Shown here: in pieces, positions 3,384-29,741 of the stretch | How the letters are laid out: every line of letters starts with the position of its first letter | How positions within the stretch are numbered: the stretch's first letter is position 1 | Source: a virus | IMG/VR virus record: IMGVR_UViG_3300027826_000159 | Coordinates: 1-29,920 of that record | Length of the DNA stretch: 29,920 nt | Strand: one strand, 5' to 3' | The notes under the pieces: model-generated | What the model saw: the letters and a program-made list of their open reading frames with translations, nothing else | Told to the model about the DNA's origin: nothing | Database searches by the model: none | Program-made: the position numbers and the translations under genes

Positions 3384-3404
3384 GTTACCCCGCCGGGTAC
3401 CCGG
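3384..3404. repeat. GTTACC...GGTACC element inside a C-rich tract, with a 12-bp palindrome
   Basis: GTTACC at 3384-3389 is followed by the perfect palindrome CCGGGTACCCGG (3393-3404). It lies in a run of C-blocks (3358-3415), so the minus strand carries several G-runs upstream of the small HTH gene. It may be an operator-like variant of the GTAACC family or a structured leader for the minus-strand transcript. Confidence 0.4.
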
Positions 3405-3421
3405 CCCCCGCACCTAGGCTG

Positions 3422-3495
3422 TAGGGCAATCAAGCGCCCTACCCGAACCGGAACCATGCCACCGAAAGGTGCGACAGTATAAAAGGCTGTCGGCG
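3422..3495 (+). other. Two short hairpins in the non-coding junction
   Basis: GTAGGGC and GCCCTAC (roughly 3421-3442) pair around a short loop. CGACAG (3472-3477) pairs with CTGTCG around TATAAAAGG. No coding frame on either strand is convincing between 3275 and 3982. The second hairpin includes a GTGCGAC at 3469, an alternative 5' end for the intron-like element that follows. Confidence 0.4.
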
Positions 3496-3524
3496 GCGCT
3501 CCTGCTCACCAGTGGAGCTACGCG

Positions 3525-3900
3525 GTGCGGGCGAGATTGCCAACGGGCGAGATAGCTAGGTCATATCGCGGCGCGTGCAGACGCGCGGGGGCTTCGGGTG
3601 CCCTGACTTATGAAAAAGCCCGATGGTGCCAGAGGAAATTCCGCGAGCGCGGAGCCGAGTGAACCCTGCGCCGTCATGTCGTCGGTATGGTCCCGAAGGG
3701 TGTGGCGGAGATGCTGGACTATTGGCCACGTTATCCGCAACTCTCAAGGTCTTAAACTGCCTAACACCATGCGACCACGAAACCAAGTGAACTTGGTGCG
3801 CGCCCAGTAGCACGCTCACCCAGAGCCGTGCGAACACCGCGTCAGTGGAAGGGCTAGACCCCAGTCAACAAGAGACTGGATACCGGGAAACCATCTCATT
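3525..3900 (+). ncRNA. Structured RNA resembling domain I of a bacterial group II intron (truncated or ORF-less)
   Basis: No protein-coding gene is supported here. The stretch starts with GTGCG (3525-3529), the group II 5' consensus. It then carries a series of blocks that match, from memory, conserved domain I text of bacterial group II introns: CTTATGAAAAAGCCCGATGG (3607-3626), AGAGGAAATTCC, GCGGAGCCGAGTGAACCC (3649-3666), GGTATGGTCCCGAAGGGTG and ACCACGAAACC. Local hairpins include GCGCGT/ACGCGC (~3572-3585), ACCAAGT-GA-ACTTGGT (~3782-3797) and CCAGTC/GACTGG (~3861-3879). I see no reverse transcriptase frame and no recognisable domain V with its AGC triad, so it is at most a fragment or an unrelated folded RNA. 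Infernal with Rfam group II models would decide. Confidence 0.45.
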
Positions 3901-3945
3901 GCGCCCACGGCTTGCGATTGCGGTCGTGGGCGCATTTGTTCATTT
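3901..3945 (+). terminator. Hairpin terminator after the structured region
   Basis: GCGCCCACG (3901-3909) pairs perfectly with CGTGGGCGC (3925-3933) around a 15-base loop, and is followed by ATTTGTTCATTT. It would end a plus-strand transcript of the folded region just before the first plus-strand gene. Confidence 0.7.
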
Positions 3946-3982: not shown

Positions 3983-4258
3983 ATGGCGAACCCATCCATG
4001 CGGGCGAAGATCGAGAAGGCGCGCAAGCAATTCAGCGAGCGATGCCACGAGGCTTTCGACCGCGAACTCTATCGCGCCGTGTTCAATCCGCACCACAAGA
4101 CCATTGCATCATACGATGATGCGCTGGTCGTGCGCGTGCCTTGCGCCGGCGTGAAACCATATCGCGCTAAGACTTACGGCAATGGCGCGCGTCGGTGGTC
4201 TAATGGTCCGGTGGTTTGCTGGGCCGAGCCGCGCGACGAACTCATCAAGGCGCGCTGA
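3983..4258 (+). CDS. Small basic protein of unknown function
   Basis: The 91-residue protein has its ATG two bases downstream of the GTTACC repeat, whose GAGG is the ribosome site. The N-terminal third is a basic amphipathic helix (MRAKIEKARKQFSERCHEAF) and the rest looks beta-like (SYDDALVVRVPCAGVKPYRA). No family recognised. It is isolated: terminator upstream at 3901-3945 and the AT-rich inverted-repeat block immediately downstream. Its last 60 bases (4193-4222) contain a copy of the ATGGTC-GGTGGTTT repeat in coding sequence. Position next to the candidate origin makes an origin-binding or early regulatory role conceivable, but nothing in the sequence shows it. Confidence 0.6.
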   Translation: MANPSMRAKIEKARKQFSERCHEAFDRELYRAVFNPHHKTIASYDDALVVRVPCAGVKPYRAKTYGNGARRWSNGPVVCWAEPRDELIKAR

Positions 4259-4268
4259 CTACAACTAA

Positions 4269-4518
4269 AACTTAATTGCTATATTTACCACAACCGAACT
4301 CGGTTGCTTGAAAGTATAGCAATTAAAGTTAGCTTAGTGCCGCAGCGACATTCTTTCTTATTCTCTATATTCTCTATATTTACTATAGGTTTTAGATACA
4401 CACCCCCCGCGCGACCCCTCAATTCCAAAATGTAACTTTCGCTAGGTTACATTTTGGAATTGAAGCTCGAAATAATTCGCCTGTATCTCCTGCGAATATG
4501 GAGAATATGGAGAATAAG
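4269..4518. repeat. AT-rich block of nested inverted repeats with 9-bp iteron-like repeats; candidate replication origin or control region
   Basis: This block is strikingly AT-rich against its GC-rich surroundings. (a) The arms 4269-4283 and 4315-4330 (AACTTTAATTGCTATA type) are inverted with one base missing, and enclose CAACCGA-AC-TCGGTTG (4291-4306). (b) The arms 4419-4436 and 4446-4463 form a perfect 18-bp inverted repeat (CAATTCCAAAATGTAAC in the left arm) around nine bases. (c) The arms 4357-4381 and 4494-4518 are inverted over 25 bases; the two internal differences would be G-U pairs in RNA. Each of these outer arms is itself built of direct 9-mers (ATTCTCTAT on the left, GAATATGGA on the right). 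No gene is supported inside. Iterons, palindromes and low melting energy fit an origin; an RNA control element is the alternative. Confidence 0.6.
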
Positions 4519-4615
4519 CCGCAAGCCATTGGCGCGGCAGCGAAAACAAATTTGCTGTAACTTATCTGAACCGGCGATTATTCACACATATAAAGATCGC
4601 CGCCGGTGACGCGGC

Positions 4616-4739: not shown

Positions 4740-4821
4740 AGCCCATCGTACCGTCCGACCCTTAGCAGCCAGATCGCTCGCGCGATTTGTTGGTGTCGTG
4801 GTGCGATGGGCTTTTTCTTTT
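4740..4821 (+). terminator. Strong long-loop terminator
   Basis: AGCCCATCGTACC (4740-4752) pairs with GGTGCGATGGGCT (4800-4812) over 13 bp with one G-U, followed by TTTTTCTTTT. The loop of about 47 bases can fold further. It isolates the early operon starting at 5001 from upstream transcription. Confidence 0.85.
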
Positions 4822-4846
4822 CGCCGCGCCTCAGCGCGAGAGCGTC

Positions 4847-5000: not shown

Positions 5001-5741
5001 ATGGTCACCAAAGCGCAGAAGAACGACAAGCGGCTCGACGACCTCATGAGCGAGGTCCGCGAGCTGGGTCGTGACGCCGCGTCCGGCAAGGACAGCCTTC
5101 CGTCGCTCGCGCACAAGATCGTGCGCGCGGCGAACGATGGCATCGTTACGCTGGACAAGGACAGCGAAGGCAAGGACGACGCGCATCGCGTCTACGACGC
5201 CTATCTGACGGCCGAGAGCAAGAAGGCCGTTCACGATCACACCGCCACGGGCAAGAAGGCGAATGTCTCCAAGCTTCGCCAGCTTATCGCGGTCGGCGGC
5301 ATGACGACCTGCGATCCGGTCGAAGTGTTCACGCGCGCTTCCCGTCTCTATCAGGAGATGGTGAAGAGCGAAGTGAAAGTTGTGTCCCCGTATCCGGCGC
5401 TCGTCGCCGTCGCGCGGGCGCAGCTTGCGTGCGACACCGACCTGACCGACGACCAGATCCGCGCCGCCTGCGAGAAGGTCTCCAAGGACAAGACCTTGGA
5501 AACCGAACTCACGCGCATCGTCAACTCGATCGAGAAGATCGTGACTGGCGAAGCCGGCGTGCAGGATCAGTCGGACGAACTCGTGCAGGCTCACTCGCTC
5601 GTGAAGCAGCGTCTCGCTGCCCTCATGAGCGTGAAGGAGCGCGACGAGGTTCTGGCCAAGGCGGCTTCGCTGGGACTGACGGTGGTGGAGAATACTCCCG
5701 CGACCGAGCAGCCCGGCGAGCAGCAGGCCGAGGCGGCGTAA
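5001..5741 (+). CDS. Acidic, mostly helical protein of unknown function, first gene of the early operon
   Basis: The 246-residue protein starts at an ATG preceded by ACGGAG. It is highly charged and Lys/Asp/Glu-rich with Ala-rich helices (KRLDDLMSEVRELGRDAASG and SDELVQAHSLVKQRLAALMS) and an acidic, Gln-rich tail ending EQPGEQQAEAA. There is one recognisable hydrophobic core segment (SPYPALVAVARAQL). No family recognised. Codon use is strongly biased to frequent GC-ending codons, which with the dedicated leader and downstream folded RNA suggests high expression. A helical, acidic abundant early protein could be a DNA-mimic, scaffold or host take-over protein; this is only a suggestion. Confidence 0.8.
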   Translation: MVTKAQKNDKRLDDLMSEVRELGRDAASGKDSLPSLAHKIVRAANDGIVTLDKDSEGKDDAHRVYDAYLTAESKKAVHDHTATGKKANVSKLRQLIAVGGMTTCDPVEVFTRASRLYQEMVKSEVKVVSPYPALVAVARAQLACDTDLTDDQIRAACEKVSKDKTLETELTRIVNSIEKIVTGEAGVQDQSDELVQAHSLVKQRLAALMSVKERDEVLAKAASLGLTVVENTPATEQPGEQQAEAA

Positions 5742-19712: not shown

Positions 19713-20000
19713 ATGTCGGCTGGACGCCAGATCATTCGCCTCAACGCTGCGCGTGAAGTCGCGGACCAACGCGCCATAGATCGTTTCGGATATTCGTATT
19801 ATGGCGTCCAGGCTCGCTTCGTGCCGCACGACGGAAAACGAAAGTGGGTGCTCAAGGTCTACCACGACGAGCACGAGGACCGGGTGATGGTGCGGTTCAT
19901 CGTGAGGGTGAACGACGATAAGATCCAACTCGAATTCACCGAGCCATTCGAAACTTTTCCGAGTGACGCGATGGTCGCACAGGTGCTGCTGGTCACGTGA
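19713..20000 (+). CDS. Small beta-rich protein, AQ-motif family candidate
   Basis: 95 residues from ATG 19713 (MSAGRQIIRLNAAREVADQR). An alternative ATG at 19671 lies inside the nuclease gene with a weaker ribosome site. Strand-rich body (KRKWVLKVYHDEHEDRVMVR, then FIVRVNDDKIQLEFTEPFE) and C-terminus FPSDAMVAQVLLVT, fitting D-x3-AQ-x-L-L. The gap before it reads TAACCGCGAGG, a degraded form of the boundary repeat. Function unknown. Stop overlaps the next GTG. Confidence 0.65.
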   Translation: MSAGRQIIRLNAAREVADQRAIDRFGYSYYGVQARFVPHDGKRKWVLKVYHDEHEDRVMVRFIVRVNDDKIQLEFTEPFETFPSDAMVAQVLLVT

Positions 20001-20308
20001 CGCCCGAAGGAAAAGTGAAGGCGCGCGTCAAACGCGTCCTTGAAAAATACGATCTCGTCTACAGATTTATGCCAGTGCAATCGGGGTACGGAGCGAAGAC
20101 GCTCGACTTCCTCGTTTGCGTCAACGGAAAATTTCTCGCCATCGAGACGAAAGCTCCGGGCAAACAACTAACGGAGCTCCAGCGCCAGACCGCGCGCGAC
20201 ATCGTCGCGGCCCGCGGCAAGGTTCTCGTTGTCGACGGCGACACCACCCAGCTCGAGCTCTATCTGAAACGAACCACTCATGTCCGTACACGTAAGCCCA
20301 AAACATAA
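19997..20308 (+). CDS. VRR-NUC domain nuclease
   Basis: 103 residues from a GTG coupled to the previous stop (GTGA). The fold is a minimal PD-(D/E)XK enzyme of the VRR-NUC family (PF08774): EGKVKARVKRVLEKY, then SGYGAKTLDFLVCVNGKFLA with D37, IETKAPGKQLTELQ with E50 and K52, and GKVLVVDG. Stand-alone phage VRR-NUC proteins act as structure-specific nucleases, including Holliday-junction type cleavage. Placed between the Cas4-like nuclease and the helicase, it fits a recombination or fork-processing role. Confidence 0.85.
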   Translation: MTPEGKVKARVKRVLEKYDLVYRFMPVQSGYGAKTLDFLVCVNGKFLAIETKAPGKQLTELQRQTARDIVAARGKVLVVDGDTTQLELYLKRTTHVRTRKPKT

Positions 20309-21833
20309 GCTGCTCGGCGTTCCGTTCAGCAACGAGGTGCGCAATCTCTTTCCCGCGGCGAAGTCTATGGAGTTCAACGGGGCGGAGCATCTTCTCCTTC
20401 CGCACGGCCCCACCGAGACGTTCATCCTTCGCAAGCTCGGATACACCGTTCCCGCGCCGATCCTGACACACTACGACTGGGCCGGCGGTAAGCCGTTCGA
20501 AGTCCAGAAGAAAACCTGCGCGCTGCTGTCGCTGAACGAACGCGCCTACGTGCTCAACGACATGGGCACAGGCAAGACGAAGGCGCTTCTCTGGGCGTGG
20601 GATTACCTTCGAAGTAACAACCTCTGCGGCCGCCTGCTGATCTTGGCGCCGCTCTCGACACTACGCTTCACGTGGGAGCGAGAGGTCTTCAACACGATCC
20701 CGCACCGCCGCTGCGCGGTCGTCCACGGCGACCGAAAGCGTCGGCTCGCGCTGCTCAACAACCCGGATGTCGAAATCTTCATCCTCAACCACGACGGGCT
20801 GAAGGTCGTCTTCGATGACATCCTCAAGATGCCCGACCTCGACGTGCTCGGCCTCGACGAGCTCGCGGTCTACCGCAACGGGCAAGCCGACCGCACCAAG
20901 CTAACGCGCAAGCTCGCGCAGAAGATGAAGTGGGTGTGGGGCATGACCGGCGCCCCGATCCCGCATGAGCCGACAGACGCGTGGGCGGAGGCGTCGATCG
21001 TCACGCCCCACACGGTGCCTAAGTATTTCTCGCGCTTCCGCGATGAGCTGATGCAGCGTGTCACCCAGTTCAAATGGGTGCCGAAGCAGGACGCGGTGGA
21101 GCGCGCCTTCGCTGCCCTTCAGCCGGCGGTGCGTTTCTCGCTCGATGACGTCGTGGAGCTGCCGGATTGCGTCGAGCAGTTCGTCGACGTCGACCTCGCG
21201 CCATCTACAGCCAAAATCTACAAGGCGCTTGTCGACGACTGCTACGCCGCGATCCAGTCGCAGGAAATCACCGCGGCCAATGCCGGCGCCGTGATGATGA
21301 AGCTTCTCCAGGTGTCGTCTGGCTGGGTCTACACCAAGGACGGCGGCACGATCTCGCTCGACAACCAGAATCGCATCGACGCAATGCTCGACGCCATCAA
21401 CGCCTCGGGCCGCAAGGTGCTCGTATTCGCCCCGTTCAAGCACGCGCTCGCTGGCATCTCGGAGACGCTCACCAAGAACAATATCGAGCACGCGACCGTC
21501 TCCGGCGACACTCCCCCGAACGATCGGGCGCAGATCTTTAACGCCTTCCAGAACACCAACAAGTACCGGACGATCGCCGCGCATCCGCAATGCCTTGCGC
21601 ACGGCGTCACCCTCACCGCCGCCGACACCATCATCTGGTTCGCGCCGGTGACGTCACTCGAGATTTACGACCAGGCCAACCGCCGCATCCGGCGAATTGG
21701 CCAGCAGCACAAGCAACTCGTGCTGCACCTTCAGAGCACGCCGGTCGAGCGGCGAATCTATTCGCTCTTGCGTGCCCAACAGAAAGTCCAAGAGAAGCTG
21801 CTCGAGCTCTTCGAAGAGGCGAGCCGCGCGTAA
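20280..21833 (+). CDS. Snf2-type SF2 DNA helicase/translocase
   Basis: 517 residues, starting 29 bases inside the VRR-NUC gene. Helicase motifs in order: I, NDMGTGKTKALLWAWDY (K99); Ia, ILAPLSTLRFTWERE; II, LGLDELAVYRN (D193-E194, DELA instead of DEAH); III, WGMTGAPIPHEPTDAW; IV-like, RKVLVFAPFKHAL; V, LAHGVTLTAADTIIWFAP; VI, DQANRRIRRIGQ (465-475). The order and spacing match Swi2/Snf2-like phage helicases. It would move along DNA for recombination or replication restart. Its TAA is part of the repeat at 21830-21848. Confidence 0.9.
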   Translation: MSVHVSPKHKLLGVPFSNEVRNLFPAAKSMEFNGAEHLLLPHGPTETFILRKLGYTVPAPILTHYDWAGGKPFEVQKKTCALLSLNERAYVLNDMGTGKTKALLWAWDYLRSNNLCGRLLILAPLSTLRFTWEREVFNTIPHRRCAVVHGDRKRRLALLNNPDVEIFILNHDGLKVVFDDILKMPDLDVLGLDELAVYRNGQADRTKLTRKLAQKMKWVWGMTGAPIPHEPTDAWAEASIVTPHTVPKYFSRFRDELMQRVTQFKWVPKQDAVERAFAALQPAVRFSLDDVVELPDCVEQFVDVDLAPSTAKIYKALVDDCYAAIQSQEITAANAGAVMMKLLQVSSGWVYTKDGGTISLDNQNRIDAMLDAINASGRKVLVFAPFKHALAGISETLTKNNIEHATVSGDTPPNDRAQIFNAFQNTNKYRTIAAHPQCLAHGVTLTAADTIIWFAPVTSLEIYDQANRRIRRIGQQHKQLVLHLQSTPVERRIYSLLRAQQKVQEKLLELFEEASRA

Positions 21834-23258: not shown

Positions 23259-26200
23259 ATGTCCACCGAACAAGCAAAAGAATATCTGGCGCGCGTCGTT
23301 CCTTGGCCCCAAGAAGGGGAAGCTCCTACCTTCGTGAATATCCATTGGACCTTTGTGCCCCCAGATCTCGAGCCGGGGCGCAAGGCGCCGTGGACGGGGC
23401 GCGCATGTCGATCGCTCAACGAAGCCGTGCGGGCGATCGAGTATGCGCTAAAAAATTCCACTACGCGCGACATCTATGCGTGCATGAGCTCGCAGCGGAC
23501 GGCGACGGAAAAGACCGCCGCCCGCAGCGGCGGCAAGTATTTCACGCCCGTACGCTCGCAGGCGAACGCCGCCTACCTCAAGTCGTTGTTCATCGACATC
23601 GACTTCAAGGGTGGCGATCACGGCTACGACACGCCCGACGAGGCCGTTACCTCGCTGGGTAACTTCCTCGCCAAATCCAACATGCCGAAGCCGAGCCTGA
23701 TCGTTTCGTCGGGCGGTGGGATGCACGTCTACTGGACGCTTGCGCGCGCACTCACGCCGCCCGAGTGGAACCCGCTCGCTTTCGCCCTCGCCGAAGCCAC
23801 GAAGCAGCTCGGCCTGAAATGCGACACGCAATGCACAATCGACGCGGCGCGCGTTTTGCGCGTGCCCGACACTTTCAACCGGAAGACCGAGCCGCCGCGT
23901 CCCGTTCGCCTCACCGGAGGCCGGACCGATTTCGATTACGCAGTCGATCGGATCTGGGCGGCGCTCGAGCCGTACCGCGTCGCCGCACCAATCACCAAAG
24001 ACATCGACCCCTCGCTTTTCCCGTCTCGGCCCCCGATCACGGGCGACAGTGCGCTCGCGATGGGAGTCGATATGGGAAGGGCCGCGCCGATCAAGCTCGA
24101 TGAGCTCAAGTCTGAGTGTGGGTTCATTCGCGATGCTCTCGATACTGGCGGCGCGGCTTTCACCAATCCGCTGTGGAACCTGACGACGCTGATCGCGACG
24201 TTCACGGACAATCCGCGCGCGGACGCGCACCGGATGGCGAACAAGCATCCGGGCTACACCCAGGAGAGCACTGATGAGCTATTCGACAGGAAAGAACGCG
24301 AGAAAGAAGCCAAAGGCCTCGGCTGGCCGGCGTGCCGCACGATCAGTGGCAGCGGTTGCAAGCTCTGCCAGAGCTGCGTCCACTTCGCCGCTGGGAAATC
24401 GCCACTACATTTCACGCCCAGGAACTCTCCCACTCCTAACGCTGGTGGTGGGAATCTACCTGGGAATGTCGCTGGTGTTGGTAACGGCCAAGCTGGCGGG
24501 GCTCCATCTGGAACCCAATTCGGTGGTCCACCTCAGCCCGCCGTTTCCCAGTCCGACCTACCGACTGGTTATGTCCGACGCGCCGACGGCGTCGTTCTCA
24601 AAATCACCACGCGTGAAGACGGTCAGCAAGACTTCATCCCGATCTGCAAGTATCCGATGCAGGACCCCTGGCTACAAGTTAGTCCGTGGGCACTGCACTT
24701 CACAACCATTCTGGATAGTGGGAGGCAGAAAAAAATCACCCTCCCTTTTACCGACGTAAGCGACGACGCGGGAATGCGCTCGACGCTATGGGCGCAGGGT
24801 GTTCCGCTCCGCAAGGGCGAGACCAGCATGACGGTGGAATTCGTGGTTAGCTGGATCGAGAAGCTTCAGAAGACGAAGGGGATGACCGTCTCCTCCGTGC
24901 CGTTCGGGTGGAACACCGCCTTCGGCAAGATCGACGGTTTCTGTTTCGGTGGCCACGTCTGGTCGCCGAACGGCGAGCGCCAAGCCGCCAGCCCCGACTT
25001 CGTTATCGCGCAGCAGTACGAGCCGACCGGCGCCATCGAGCCGTGGATCACGGCGGCAAAGATGGTCACGCAACAGAAGCGGCCGGCGCTAGACGCGGTG
25101 ATTGCCGCCTCTTTCGGCGCGCCGCTCGTGCGCTTTACCGGCCAGACGGGGCTCCTCATGAGCCTCTACTCGATCGAGTCCGGCATCGGAAAATCGACTG
25201 CGCTCAAGATCGCGCAGGCGGTGTGGGGCGATCCCATTAAAGCCATGCAGGGGCTTTCAGATACGCAGAACTCCGTCGTCAACAAGATCGGCGAGATCCG
25301 CTCGCTGCCCCTCTTTTGGGACGAGCTGAAAACTGAAGACGATACGAAGAAGTTCGTCAATCTCGCGTTCCAGCTTTCCCTAGGAAAAGAAAAGTCGCGG
25401 TTAACGCAGTCGTCCCAGCAGCGGAACCCGGGGACGTGGCAAACGATTCTAGTTTCGGCGTCGAATGAAAGTCTTCTCGACTTCGTGTTGACGAGGACAA
25501 AAATGACGACGGCTGGTTTGTATCGCGTCTTCGAATACGAAGTACCACCAGCGATTGGTGCTCAGGTTGCGCTCGCTGATGCACAAAGTCTGCTTGGTGC
25601 ACTGCACGATAACTACGGCATCGTCGGACTTGAGTTCGCGAAGTTTTTGGGAGCGCACCACGCGCGCCTTAACTCTGAAGTCAATTCCTACTTCAAAAAT
25701 CTGGAGACCGAACTCAGGATACAGCCCGACGAAAGATTTTGGGCGGCGTTGATCACCTGCGTCTGTTTGGGAGCGAAATACTCAAACGAGCTGAAGTTCA
25801 CGGAGATCGACGAAGAGGGGCTGAAGCAATTCATGATCACTACGCTTGCCGGAATGCGGAGCGAGCGCGCCAGCCAACCGGTGGACATGAAGGACACGAT
25901 GAACGTGTCCAACATTCTCGCGCAATTTCTGAATGAGATGCGCGCCCGCCACACGCTTTACACCAACCGCATCCACACCTCGAAGGGCAAGCCATCCGGC
26001 ATCGTGGTGAAGCGTGATGCCTCTCGGCTAGAGAGCGTGTACGTGCACGTCGGCCTCGATCAGAAGCTGATGCGGATCAGCTCCACGAAGCTGTCTAACT
26101 GGTTGGGCGACAACAACTATTCCCGCCATATCTTCAATCGCGCGCTCGAGCGCGAGTTCAAAGCGAAGACCGTGCGCGGGTTCATTGGCTCGGGAACGCA

Positions 26201-26279
26201 GTACGCGGTCGCGTCTGAATATCTCGTGGAAATCGACCTGAATAATTCGCCGCACGCCAACTTCATCGACGAAGCCTAA
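23259..26279 (+). CDS. Primase-helicase: AEP-like primase domain fused to DUF927/P-loop helicase
   Basis: 1006 residues. The N-terminal domain shows an archaeo-eukaryotic-primase pattern: SLFIDIDFKGGDHG (D113, D115), SSGGGMHVYWTL (H156) and IDAARVLRVPDTFNRK. A cysteine cluster near 365 (CRTISGSGCKLCQSC) may bind zinc. After a Gly/Pro-rich linker (~390-425), the C-terminal part matches DUF927-type helicases: FGWNTAFGKIDGFCFGGHVW, Walker A SIESGIGKSTALKIA (K645), Walker B LPLFWDELK (D688-E689) and ILVSASNESLLD. It would prime and unwind the phage chromosome for the PolA at 16138. It contains GTTACC-N6-GGTAAC (23646) and GCGCACTCAC (23746) in the primase domain. Confidence 0.9.
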   Translation: MSTEQAKEYLARVVPWPQEGEAPTFVNIHWTFVPPDLEPGRKAPWTGRACRSLNEAVRAIEYALKNSTTRDIYACMSSQRTATEKTAARSGGKYFTPVRSQANAAYLKSLFIDIDFKGGDHGYDTPDEAVTSLGNFLAKSNMPKPSLIVSSGGGMHVYWTLARALTPPEWNPLAFALAEATKQLGLKCDTQCTIDAARVLRVPDTFNRKTEPPRPVRLTGGRTDFDYAVDRIWAALEPYRVAAPITKDIDPSLFPSRPPITGDSALAMGVDMGRAAPIKLDELKSECGFIRDALDTGGAAFTNPLWNLTTLIATFTDNPRADAHRMANKHPGYTQESTDELFDRKEREKEAKGLGWPACRTISGSGCKLCQSCVHFAAGKSPLHFTPRNSPTPNAGGGNLPGNVAGVGNGQAGGAPSGTQFGGPPQPAVSQSDLPTGYVRRADGVVLKITTREDGQQDFIPICKYPMQDPWLQVSPWALHFTTILDSGRQKKITLPFTDVSDDAGMRSTLWAQGVPLRKGETSMTVEFVVSWIEKLQKTKGMTVSSVPFGWNTAFGKIDGFCFGGHVWSPNGERQAASPDFVIAQQYEPTGAIEPWITAAKMVTQQKRPALDAVIAASFGAPLVRFTGQTGLLMSLYSIESGIGKSTALKIAQAVWGDPIKAMQGLSDTQNSVVNKIGEIRSLPLFWDELKTEDDTKKFVNLAFQLSLGKEKSRLTQSSQQRNPGTWQTILVSASNESLLDFVLTRTKMTTAGLYRVFEYEVPPAIGAQVALADAQSLLGALHDNYGIVGLEFAKFLGAHHARLNSEVNSYFKNLETELRIQPDERFWAALITCVCLGAKYSNELKFTEIDEEGLKQFMITTLAGMRSERASQPVDMKDTMNVSNILAQFLNEMRARHTLYTNRIHTSKGKPSGIVVKRDASRLESVYVHVGLDQKLMRISSTKLSNWLGDNNYSRHIFNRALEREFKAKTVRGFIGSGTQYAVASEYLVEIDLNNSPHANFIDEA
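23646..23663. repeat. Perfect GTTACC-N6-GGTAAC palindrome inside the primase domain
   Basis: Perfect 6-bp arms with spacer TCGCTG, identical to the spacer at 7989-8006. It is fully inside coding sequence (around residues 130-135, in VTSLGNF), with a GCGCACTCAC copy 83 bases downstream. Confidence 0.7.
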
Positions 26280-26299: not shown

Positions 26300-26758
26300 A
26301 TGAACTCAGAAGAACGAAATCAACTGGACGCACTGATCGAGAAGCTGAACAACGCGGCGGCCGTCGGCGACGCGCTCGCTGCCGAGTCGGCCTCGGCGAT
26401 CGTCGATCTCATTGCGCGCGTTCGTCCGGATGATCTTGTGTCCGTGAACCTGTTCACCAACCTCGCCACGCGCGGCCTGAAGACCGTGAAGCTCAGCCCG
26501 TCGGAGGCGTCGCTTCTCTACCGGATGACACAATCGCATCCGAAGTCCGTCACGCTCGATGAGCTCTACGTCGCGGTCTACGGACGCACGCTTAAGCGCA
26601 ACAAGAACACCGTGCGCGTCCTGCTGAAGGGCCTGCGCAGCCGCGCGGCCGAGCTGCACATAACGATCACCAACACGTTCGGGACGGGATACCGGCTCGA
26701 GCTCCATCCCCTCCCCCCTCACGAGAGTGTTCCAAATGACAATCCACAAGACGCGTAA
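26300..26758 (+). CDS. Second orphan OmpR/PhoB-type winged-helix protein
   Basis: 152 residues; ATG directly follows CACCCACAG. The N-terminal ~70 residues are helical (ERNQLDALIEKLNNAAAVGD). The effector domain follows: VKLSPSEASLLYRMTQSHPK, TLDELYVAVYG, recognition helix KNTVRVLLKGLRSRAAEL, wing ITITNTFGTGYRLEL. This is the typical LSPxE...LR...G-x-GYRL signature without a receiver domain. It shares this form with the protein at 18178, although the sequences are far apart. Likely a phage transcription regulator, as part of the decision or late switch. Confidence 0.8.
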   Translation: MNSEERNQLDALIEKLNNAAAVGDALAAESASAIVDLIARVRPDDLVSVNLFTNLATRGLKTVKLSPSEASLLYRMTQSHPKSVTLDELYVAVYGRTLKRNKNTVRVLLKGLRSRAAELHITITNTFGTGYRLELHPLPPHESVPNDNPQDA

Positions 26759-28643: not shown

Positions 28644-29741
28644 ATGGCACTGAAACTCGTCAAGCGAAAGGGATCGAAATATATCTACATGCGGGGCACC
28701 GTCCGGGGGGCTTTCGTTTTTGAAAGCACCGGCGTCATAGACAGGAAGTCCGCGGAGCCTATCCGCGCGCTGCGCGAGGCCGAGCTCATCGAGCAGTCGG
28801 TCTTCGGTAAGCGCGCCACTCTCACCTTCAACGAGGCAGCGGCCCACTATCTGGCCCACCACGGCGCTCCCGAATATGTGGGCAAGCTGGTCAGCCACTT
28901 CGGCTCGCAGCGGAAGCTGCATACGATCTCGCAGTCAGATCTAGATGCCGCCGCCGACGAGATCTATCCGAACGCGAGCTACCAGACCAAGAACCGGCAG
29001 GTGCACACGCCTTTCATCGCCATCTGGAACAAGGCGGTCGCCGGCGGGTGGGCGCCGGAAAAGAAATGGTCGCGCCCAAAGAAGCCGAAGGGCACGCTCA
29101 ACAAGCCGGCGCCGAAGCGCTCCGGCACGCGCGCTGTCGGCTACGAGCGCGCTTACGAATTCGTCTCGGCCATGAGCCCGGCTCCCGGGCTGATCATGAC
29201 GTGTCTGTTTTACACGGGGATGCGGCCGATCGAGCTCATGTCGCTCGACGCGGACGTCGACGACGTCCGTCCCGACGATAGCTGGCTGGTGCTATCGAAC
29301 TCGAAGACCGGCCAGCCGCGCGGCGTGCCGCTCCACGATTTCATCGTGCCGATCTTTCGGGCGCTCAAGACCCGCGGCGGAAGGCTCTTCCGCACGCCCA
29401 AGAATAGGCCCTACACCGATGGGGGGCAGATCAAGACGGCGATCCTCGGCGCGCGCGAGCGCACGGGGATCACGGACGTGTCGCCGTACACCGGCCGGCA
29501 CACCGTCTCAACCCAGCTTGTCGTGAACGGGGTCCACCCACATATCAAGGACCAGATCCTCGGCCACGCCGTCACCGAGATGAGCCGCGTCTACACGCAC
29601 GTCCCGGTGAAGTCCCTGATCGAAGCGATCAACACACTCCCCGTGCCGCCGGCATGGCGCGAGCTCGAGTGGATCAAGAACCCACTCGCCAAGTCGCGGT
29701 ACTTCGTCCGCGAGAAACCACCAGAGGTGAAGACGGCTTGA
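28644..29741 (+). CDS. Tyrosine recombinase / phage integrase
   Basis: 365 residues with GGGGAG upstream. An N-terminal arm-binding-like region (LKLVKRKGSKYIYMRGTVRG) and a SAM-like core-binding domain (~75-140) precede the catalytic domain. Catalytic residues visible: R194 in FYTGMRPIELM, K221 in SKTGQPR, R285-H286 in PYTGRHT, H308 in ILGHAV, and nucleophile Y317 in RVYTHV. The first His of the usual HxxR box is Tyr (Y282), a tolerated variant. It would integrate the phage into the host chromosome, implying a temperate cycle. I cannot identify the attachment site; the 40-base gap before it has no clear core repeat. Confidence 0.9.
   Translation: MALKLVKRKGSKYIYMRGTVRGAFVFESTGVIDRKSAEPIRALREAELIEQSVFGKRATLTFNEAAAHYLAHHGAPEYVGKLVSHFGSQRKLHTISQSDLDAAADEIYPNASYQTKNRQVHTPFIAIWNKAVAGGWAPEKKWSRPKKPKGTLNKPAPKRSGTRAVGYERAYEFVSAMSPAPGLIMTCLFYTGMRPIELMSLDADVDDVRPDDSWLVLSNSKTGQPRGVPLHDFIVPIFRALKTRGGRLFRTPKNRPYTDGGQIKTAILGARERTGITDVSPYTGRHTVSTQLVVNGVHPHIKDQILGHAVTEMSRVYTHVPVKSLIEAINTLPVPPAWRELEWIKNPLAKSRYFVREKPPEVKTA

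Follow-up and report, generated by a model that had tools for sequence, protein, structure and literature searches.

Several replication systems bear on the locus described here. Published origins of PICI (SaPI-like) elements consist of an AT-rich region with two sets of iterons around it. According to PMC6092414, no other bacterial replicon was known to have this layout. The iterons are recognised by SaPI Rep through its C-terminal domain, and in Cch2 the corresponding domain binds direct repeats in the putative origin (PMC7581432). The alpha protein of phage P4 is a fusion of primase, helicase and origin-binding functions (PMC7145576), and a pRN1-type minimal replicon is reported to need, besides a primase-helicase replication protein, a stretch downstream of its operon (PMC4234260).

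The DNA analysed here, referred to as the window, is a stretch of 29,920 bases of viral origin (IMGVR_UViG_3300027826_000159). It was identical throughout to part of IMGVR_UViG_3300005533_000243, through which the whole genome of 59,845 bp was available, that of a roughly 60-kb soil phage with a DNA polymerase A. A sequence-only reading of the window had singled out an AT-rich patch with nested inverted repeats as a candidate replication origin. Our comparisons suggest that the patch is probably the origin of this phage, read by its DUF927 primase-helicase. That reading is supported by the recurrence of the unique AT-rich patch, at the matching end of their early region, in almost every relative, by unit-variable repeats in both orientations that are usual in those patches, and by an encoded initiator helicase resembling SaPI Rep.

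Location and repeat structure of the patch

The features referred to below are as follows (window coordinates).

3983–4258, + strand: gene of a small basic protein of 91 aa, immediately to the left of the patch
4236–4530, no strand assigned: AT-rich patch, presumed unwinding region with iterons; AT maximum of the genome
4272–4326, no strand assigned: inverted repeat (15 nt) that surrounds a smaller hairpin, CAACCGA-ACT-CGGTTG (4291–4306)
4359–4380, − strand: left iteron set, ATTCTCTAT twice; read on the − strand, AATATAGAG twice
4419–4463, no strand assigned: perfect 18-bp inverted repeat with a 9-nt spacer, between the iteron sets
4494–4518, + strand: right iteron set, GAATATGGA twice, inverted relative to the left set
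5001–5741, + strand: gene of a conserved 246-aa protein, all-helical, marking the corresponding place in relatives
23259–26279, + strand: presumed initiator, a primase-helicase of 1006 aa with DUF927 and a winged-helix-like C-terminal domain

All three inverted repeats of the sequence-only reading were found where it had placed them. The outer arms (4357–4380 and 4495–4518, 114 nt apart) are 92% complementary over a scored length of 24 nt, not the 25 bases claimed, and are built as described from tandem 9-mers, with ATTCTCTAT at 4360 and 4369 and GAATATGGA at 4494 and 4503. The inner pair (4419–4436 and 4446–4463; 18 nt, 9 nt apart) proved to be 100% complementary, as had been stated, and the remaining pair (4272–4286 and 4312–4326; 15 nt, 25 nt apart) is 93% complementary. 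There are two iteron units per side, the left and right units differ at one base, and neither occurs outside the patch in the 59.8-kb genome.

The patch had been placed between divergent genes beside a small basic protein gene; that gene does adjoin it, but both flanking genes (3983–4258 and 5001–5741) point rightward, which places the site within the left end of the rightward early region and not exactly at the divergence. The search with the 91-aa basic protein gave no relative. The 246-aa neighbour, which had no match in a scan of genome contigs, was considered as the initiator and rejected: its all-helical model (of moderate confidence) had no convincing fold match, and the protein is conserved while the iterons differ. 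A phage attachment site was likewise rejected, as the tyrosine integrase gene (28644–29741) lies 24 kb from the patch and does not adjoin it. Between the patch and the 246-aa gene there is a terminator-like hairpin, AGCCCATCGTACC/GGTGCGATGGGCT, followed by TTTTTCTTTT (4740–4822).

The stretch 4236–4480 has the highest AT content of the 59.8-kb genome (0.66; next highest, 0.53). In a strict scan of all 59,845 bp the 18-bp pair was the sole inverted repeat of ≥15 nt; five first-order Markov shuffles of the genome yielded 1, 0, 0, 0 and 0 such repeats, and shuffling the region produced one in 1 of 2000 trials. Sharing of 8-mers, direct and inverted, within the 400-nt patch reached 38 (shuffle mean 4.8, maximum 15), a score that ranks second genome-wide behind a window dominated by direct repeats. 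The repeat clustering was unmatched by every chance model run. A stricter test, which counted 8-mers occurring in both orientations within 700 nt against shuffles, was not significant for the window phage (p 0.17), owing to the one-base difference between its left and right units; the patch passes the looser 8-mer sharing test. This failure is the main weakness of the case for an origin in the window genome.

Patches in related phages

The early protein of 246 aa and the primase-helicase of 1006 aa are shared, at 46% and 49% identity respectively, with four Rhizobium phages (RHph_TM27A, TM27B, TM29 and TM3_14A; 60.9 kb). Other relatives were viral contigs found by profile searches; 25 contigs were oriented and the AT maximum was located in each. 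Where the contig of a relative extends to the left end of the early region, it nearly always has one AT-rich patch there, usually the AT maximum of the contig. For 14 contigs with a detected 246-aa gene, the top 150-nt AT window fell about −6.9 to +1.6 kb from that gene, and in a fifteenth, that of L018 (G028), the patch ranked third in AT by a margin of 0.01. In three contigs in which the gene was undetected (G002, G017 and G023), the top AT patch preceded the polymerase gene by ∼6 to 9 kb. The position of the patch is conserved among relatives.

Most of these patches contain short repeated words in both orientations, and the word is different in each phage:

L018 (G028 contig): ATCTATA
G002: CCCCACCATTTT, four copies facing four
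G017: arrays similar to those of CCCCACCATTTT in G002
G021: AAATGTCC
G024: AATTGGTC
G025: ATTAGCTG to the left and CAGCTAAT to the right of an AT-rich core
L017: CAATAATAACT

Of 18 patches put to the strict both-orientation test, 12 were significant at p≤0.015 and 9 were the outright maximum of their contig; those of G006, G020, G027 and G029 fail it, as does that of the window. Opposed iteron sets were clearer in G025, G002, G017 and G024 than in the window. The sequence-only reading had proposed comparing the arms with relatives, and here the arm sequences turned out not to be conserved, none of the relatives examined having homologous arms; what is conserved is the architecture. An iteron origin would be expected to show just this combination of constant architecture and variable sequence. 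Separately, the 11-mer TAACCCATTGA was found once per genome in 5 of 26 genomes (G007, G028, TM27A and two others), within or near the AT patch in at least 3 relatives, and is absent from the window phage.

A natural exchange was apparent between TM27A and TM29, which are ∼99.4% identical across 24 kb of the early region and have diverged alleles over ∼19,860–20,548 (MN988461.1 vs MN988463.1). In TM27A the patch is at 19.5–20.1 kb, and the exchanged segment takes in its right half together with the small gene next to it. Five 8-mers that recur in the half not exchanged persist in both alleles (null mean 0.6 and maximum 6 across 200 shuffles), as would fit an unchanged helicase still reading retained iterons. 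No DNA-binding domain was recognisable in the exchanged adjacent genes.

Cumulative GC skew, which had been put forward as a check on the origin, gave a mixed outcome. Without detrending, its maximum coincided with the patch in the window phage, but TM27A had a minimum just left of the corresponding region, near the early region; detrending moved the maximum of the window phage ∼9 kb to the left, and positions differed between relatives. As an origin marker, skew was inconsistent between relatives and neither supports nor refutes the assignment.

Dispersed palindromes

A 17–18-bp palindrome, GTTACC-N5/6-GGTAAC, is dispersed through these genomes, with 36–82 copies per long contig of close relatives vs 5–16 in shuffled sequence and about 60–70 copies in RHph_TM27A. 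A spacer of 5 or 6 is strongly preferred, and there is approximately one copy per 0.4–0.9 kb, within and between genes (in the window e.g. at 3384, 3963, 5738, 6204, 6439, 7155, 7989 and 8653). The pattern recalls the stoperator-like or start-associated repeats of mycobacteriophages. The core of the 18-bp repeat in the patch, GTAAC..GTTAC, is a degenerate match to this palindrome. A non-coding stretch that follows a GTTACC palindrome recurs in relatives (window 3384–3935; L011 6680–7000; L017 6735–7000; L018 9195–9450); it holds CCTA-n-TGTAGG as a short conserved element, and its window version ends close to a terminator-like hairpin (3910–3931). This stretch is possibly an uncharacterised phage RNA.

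A presumed initiator helicase

The 1006-aa protein has a DUF927 match and weaker primase matches towards its N-terminus, and its profile matches two solved structures, those of SCCmec Cch (5dgk) and SaPIbov1 Rep (8tch). Residues 480–1006 were modelled using AlphaFold2 (mean pLDDT 83.7). Its alignments to Cch (Z 28.7, 444 residues) and to SaPIbov1 Rep (Z 24.5, 413 residues) cover almost the whole model, C-terminal domain included; an MCM came next among the structural matches, at Z 12.3. Judging from this model, the phage presumably encodes an initiator helicase of the SaPI Rep type. The patch is ∼19 kb upstream of the helicase gene (23259–26279), and the next listed ORF past that gene begins 20 nt on, at 26300.

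G002 and G017, the sole pair with a common iteron word, are more alike in the C-terminal domain (0.59) than in the helicase domain (0.49), whereas in every other pair among the distant relatives the helicase domains are the closer match. We take this as a hint, from one genome pair only, that the C-terminal domain may covary with the iteron. A third contig with the G002 iteron (L195) was rejected as an extra pair; it is a copy of the G002 region on a contig without a helicase match.

The right-arm word in another virus family

The exact 22-mer GAATATRGAGAATATRGAGAAT from the right arm was present in 25 other viral contigs. In 23 of these it follows a TOPRIM-AAA primase-helicase gene, unrelated to that of the window, at a distance of ∼15 to 180 nt from the 3′ end, and nearly all of this family have 2–3 units per orientation, ∼70–115 nt apart. 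The sets face each other in the TOPRIM-AAA family vs a back-to-back order in the window. With GAATATGGA iterons near the 3′ end of its primase-helicase gene, this family obeys the PICI rule using the iteron of the window. Since they represent one family, the 23 matches count as a single coincidence; the other two (L207 and L213) have no primase-helicase gene, look like chance and were set aside. As calibration, an 18-mer from the palindrome matched 15 other contigs singly and none in paired form, which indicates that single matches of such length arise by chance. The 22-mer result is therefore meaningful mainly through its layout.

The contigs of this group (L198–L206, L208–L212, L214–L217 and L219–L223) are of low GC content and have the TOPRIM-AAA primase-helicase followed by GAATATGGA iterons near its 3′ end, usually in both orientations. 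The site is likely an origin in an unrelated virus group.

Alternative explanations

A structured RNA, with the nested arms transcribed from the + strand as a leader, terminator or non-coding RNA, would account for the stable + strand fold (−69.6 kcal/mol, z −9.95) and for arm differences that are all G-U compatible on that strand, which the sequence-only reading had taken as a sign of selection for RNA pairing. A transition difference always yields a G-U pair on one strand and an A-C mismatch on the opposite strand. However, both differences fall at the same position of the 9-mer unit, and are therefore a single event that was copied; the − strand folds as well (−70.3 kcal/mol, z −7.35), as expected of any inverted repeat, and this equal folding leaves no sign of RNA selection. 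Moreover, Rfam gave nothing at gathering scores, and relatives keep the place of the patch but not the arms, some having arrays in place of one hairpin. We regard an RNA as very improbable. Recent insertion of a MITE-like element, or a chance AT-rich island, would fit a composition sharply unlike the rest of the genome and inverted arms typical of small mobile elements; it can practically be dismissed, given that the patch is single-copy in the genome, that the 18-nt arm was never paired in 15 other contigs, and that a patch occupies the corresponding place in nearly all relatives.

The opposed repeats could instead be operators of a repressor or early regulator in a transcription control or immunity region, with early promoters in the AT-rich DNA. 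The rightward early region has the patch at its left end, near the divergence; site words that change fast and are exchanged with an adjacent small gene (TM27A/TM29) fit an immunity region, and the 18-bp palindrome resembles the dispersed one. On the other hand, a weak test found no sigma-70-like promoter in the patch, the exchanged genes are without a recognisable DNA-binding domain, and it is origins that more typically show AT extremes with short tandem words clustered in both orientations. We consider pure control function unlikely, and the patch may have a double role in replication and transcription control. Iteron arrays also serve as centromeres, and the tyrosine integrase gene means that the phage could be temperate; a centromere-like partition site, or another element for segregating a plasmid-like prophage, is nevertheless most improbable, as no ParA/ParB-like protein was seen among the proteins scanned, which cover part of the small genes.

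Proposed mechanism and implications

If the patch is the origin, we infer that binding, melting, loading and the start of replication would all take place there. The winged-helix C-terminal domain of the helicase would bind both oppositely oriented 9-bp iteron sets (4359–4380 and 4494–4518), two helicase rings would load facing each other, and the AT-rich DNA between and around the iterons would melt. The rings would then unwind outward while the fused primase lays primers that the phage DNA polymerase A would extend. More loosely, the central 18-bp palindrome might act as a strand-exposed hairpin or a regulator site.

An extended picture is rather doubtful as a whole and is offered tentatively. 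A family of ∼60-kb tailed phages would use a PICI-like origin distant from the initiator gene; iteron words and the initiator C-terminal domain would co-diversify fast, so that relatives read different words, and origin halves would be swapped between near-identical phages together with a neighbouring gene. The use of GAATATGGA by an unrelated primase-helicase family as well would mean that different initiators met one iteron, through convergence or domain exchange.

If true, this would be the first assignment of an origin and initiator for this phage family (based on a small literature search), and would extend the PICI-type origin layout to large independent phages. It would also provide natural pairs of iterons and DNA-binding domains for studying origin specificity, show that in these phages composition and unit-variable repeats can locate the origin even without conserved sequence, and make the rules of replication start testable in an uncharacterised phage family.

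Comparison with known replication systems

RepA-type iteron plasmids share short iterons and an AT-rich unwinding element with the window phage; they differ in having direct iterons bound by RepA without a helicase, and no RepA-like protein was seen in the phage. The pRN1-type plasmids, which are archaeal, are alike in the domain type of their primase-helicase. Phage P4 (ori/crr), whose alpha protein works on iterons, is comparable in that its fused primase-helicase-origin-binding protein acts on such repeats, but P4 uses two separated sites. SCCmec Cch is the best structural match of the helicase half of the phage protein (Z 28.7); SCC elements, however, are not phages and have their origin downstream of the operon.

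The PICI/SaPI systems resemble this locus in two respects: the phage encodes a DUF927 Rep-like helicase whose C-terminal domain matches those of Cch and SaPIbov1 Rep, and the window has two opposed iteron sets, of two units per side, in an AT-rich patch. In contrast to these elements, the phage of the window is tailed and of ∼60 kb, encodes a DNA polymerase A of its own, and has primase and helicase fused. Furthermore, the PICI origin is directly 3′ of rep, whereas the patch is ∼19 kb from the helicase gene, and a probable origin at such a distance from its presumed initiator sets this case apart from known PICI-type origins.
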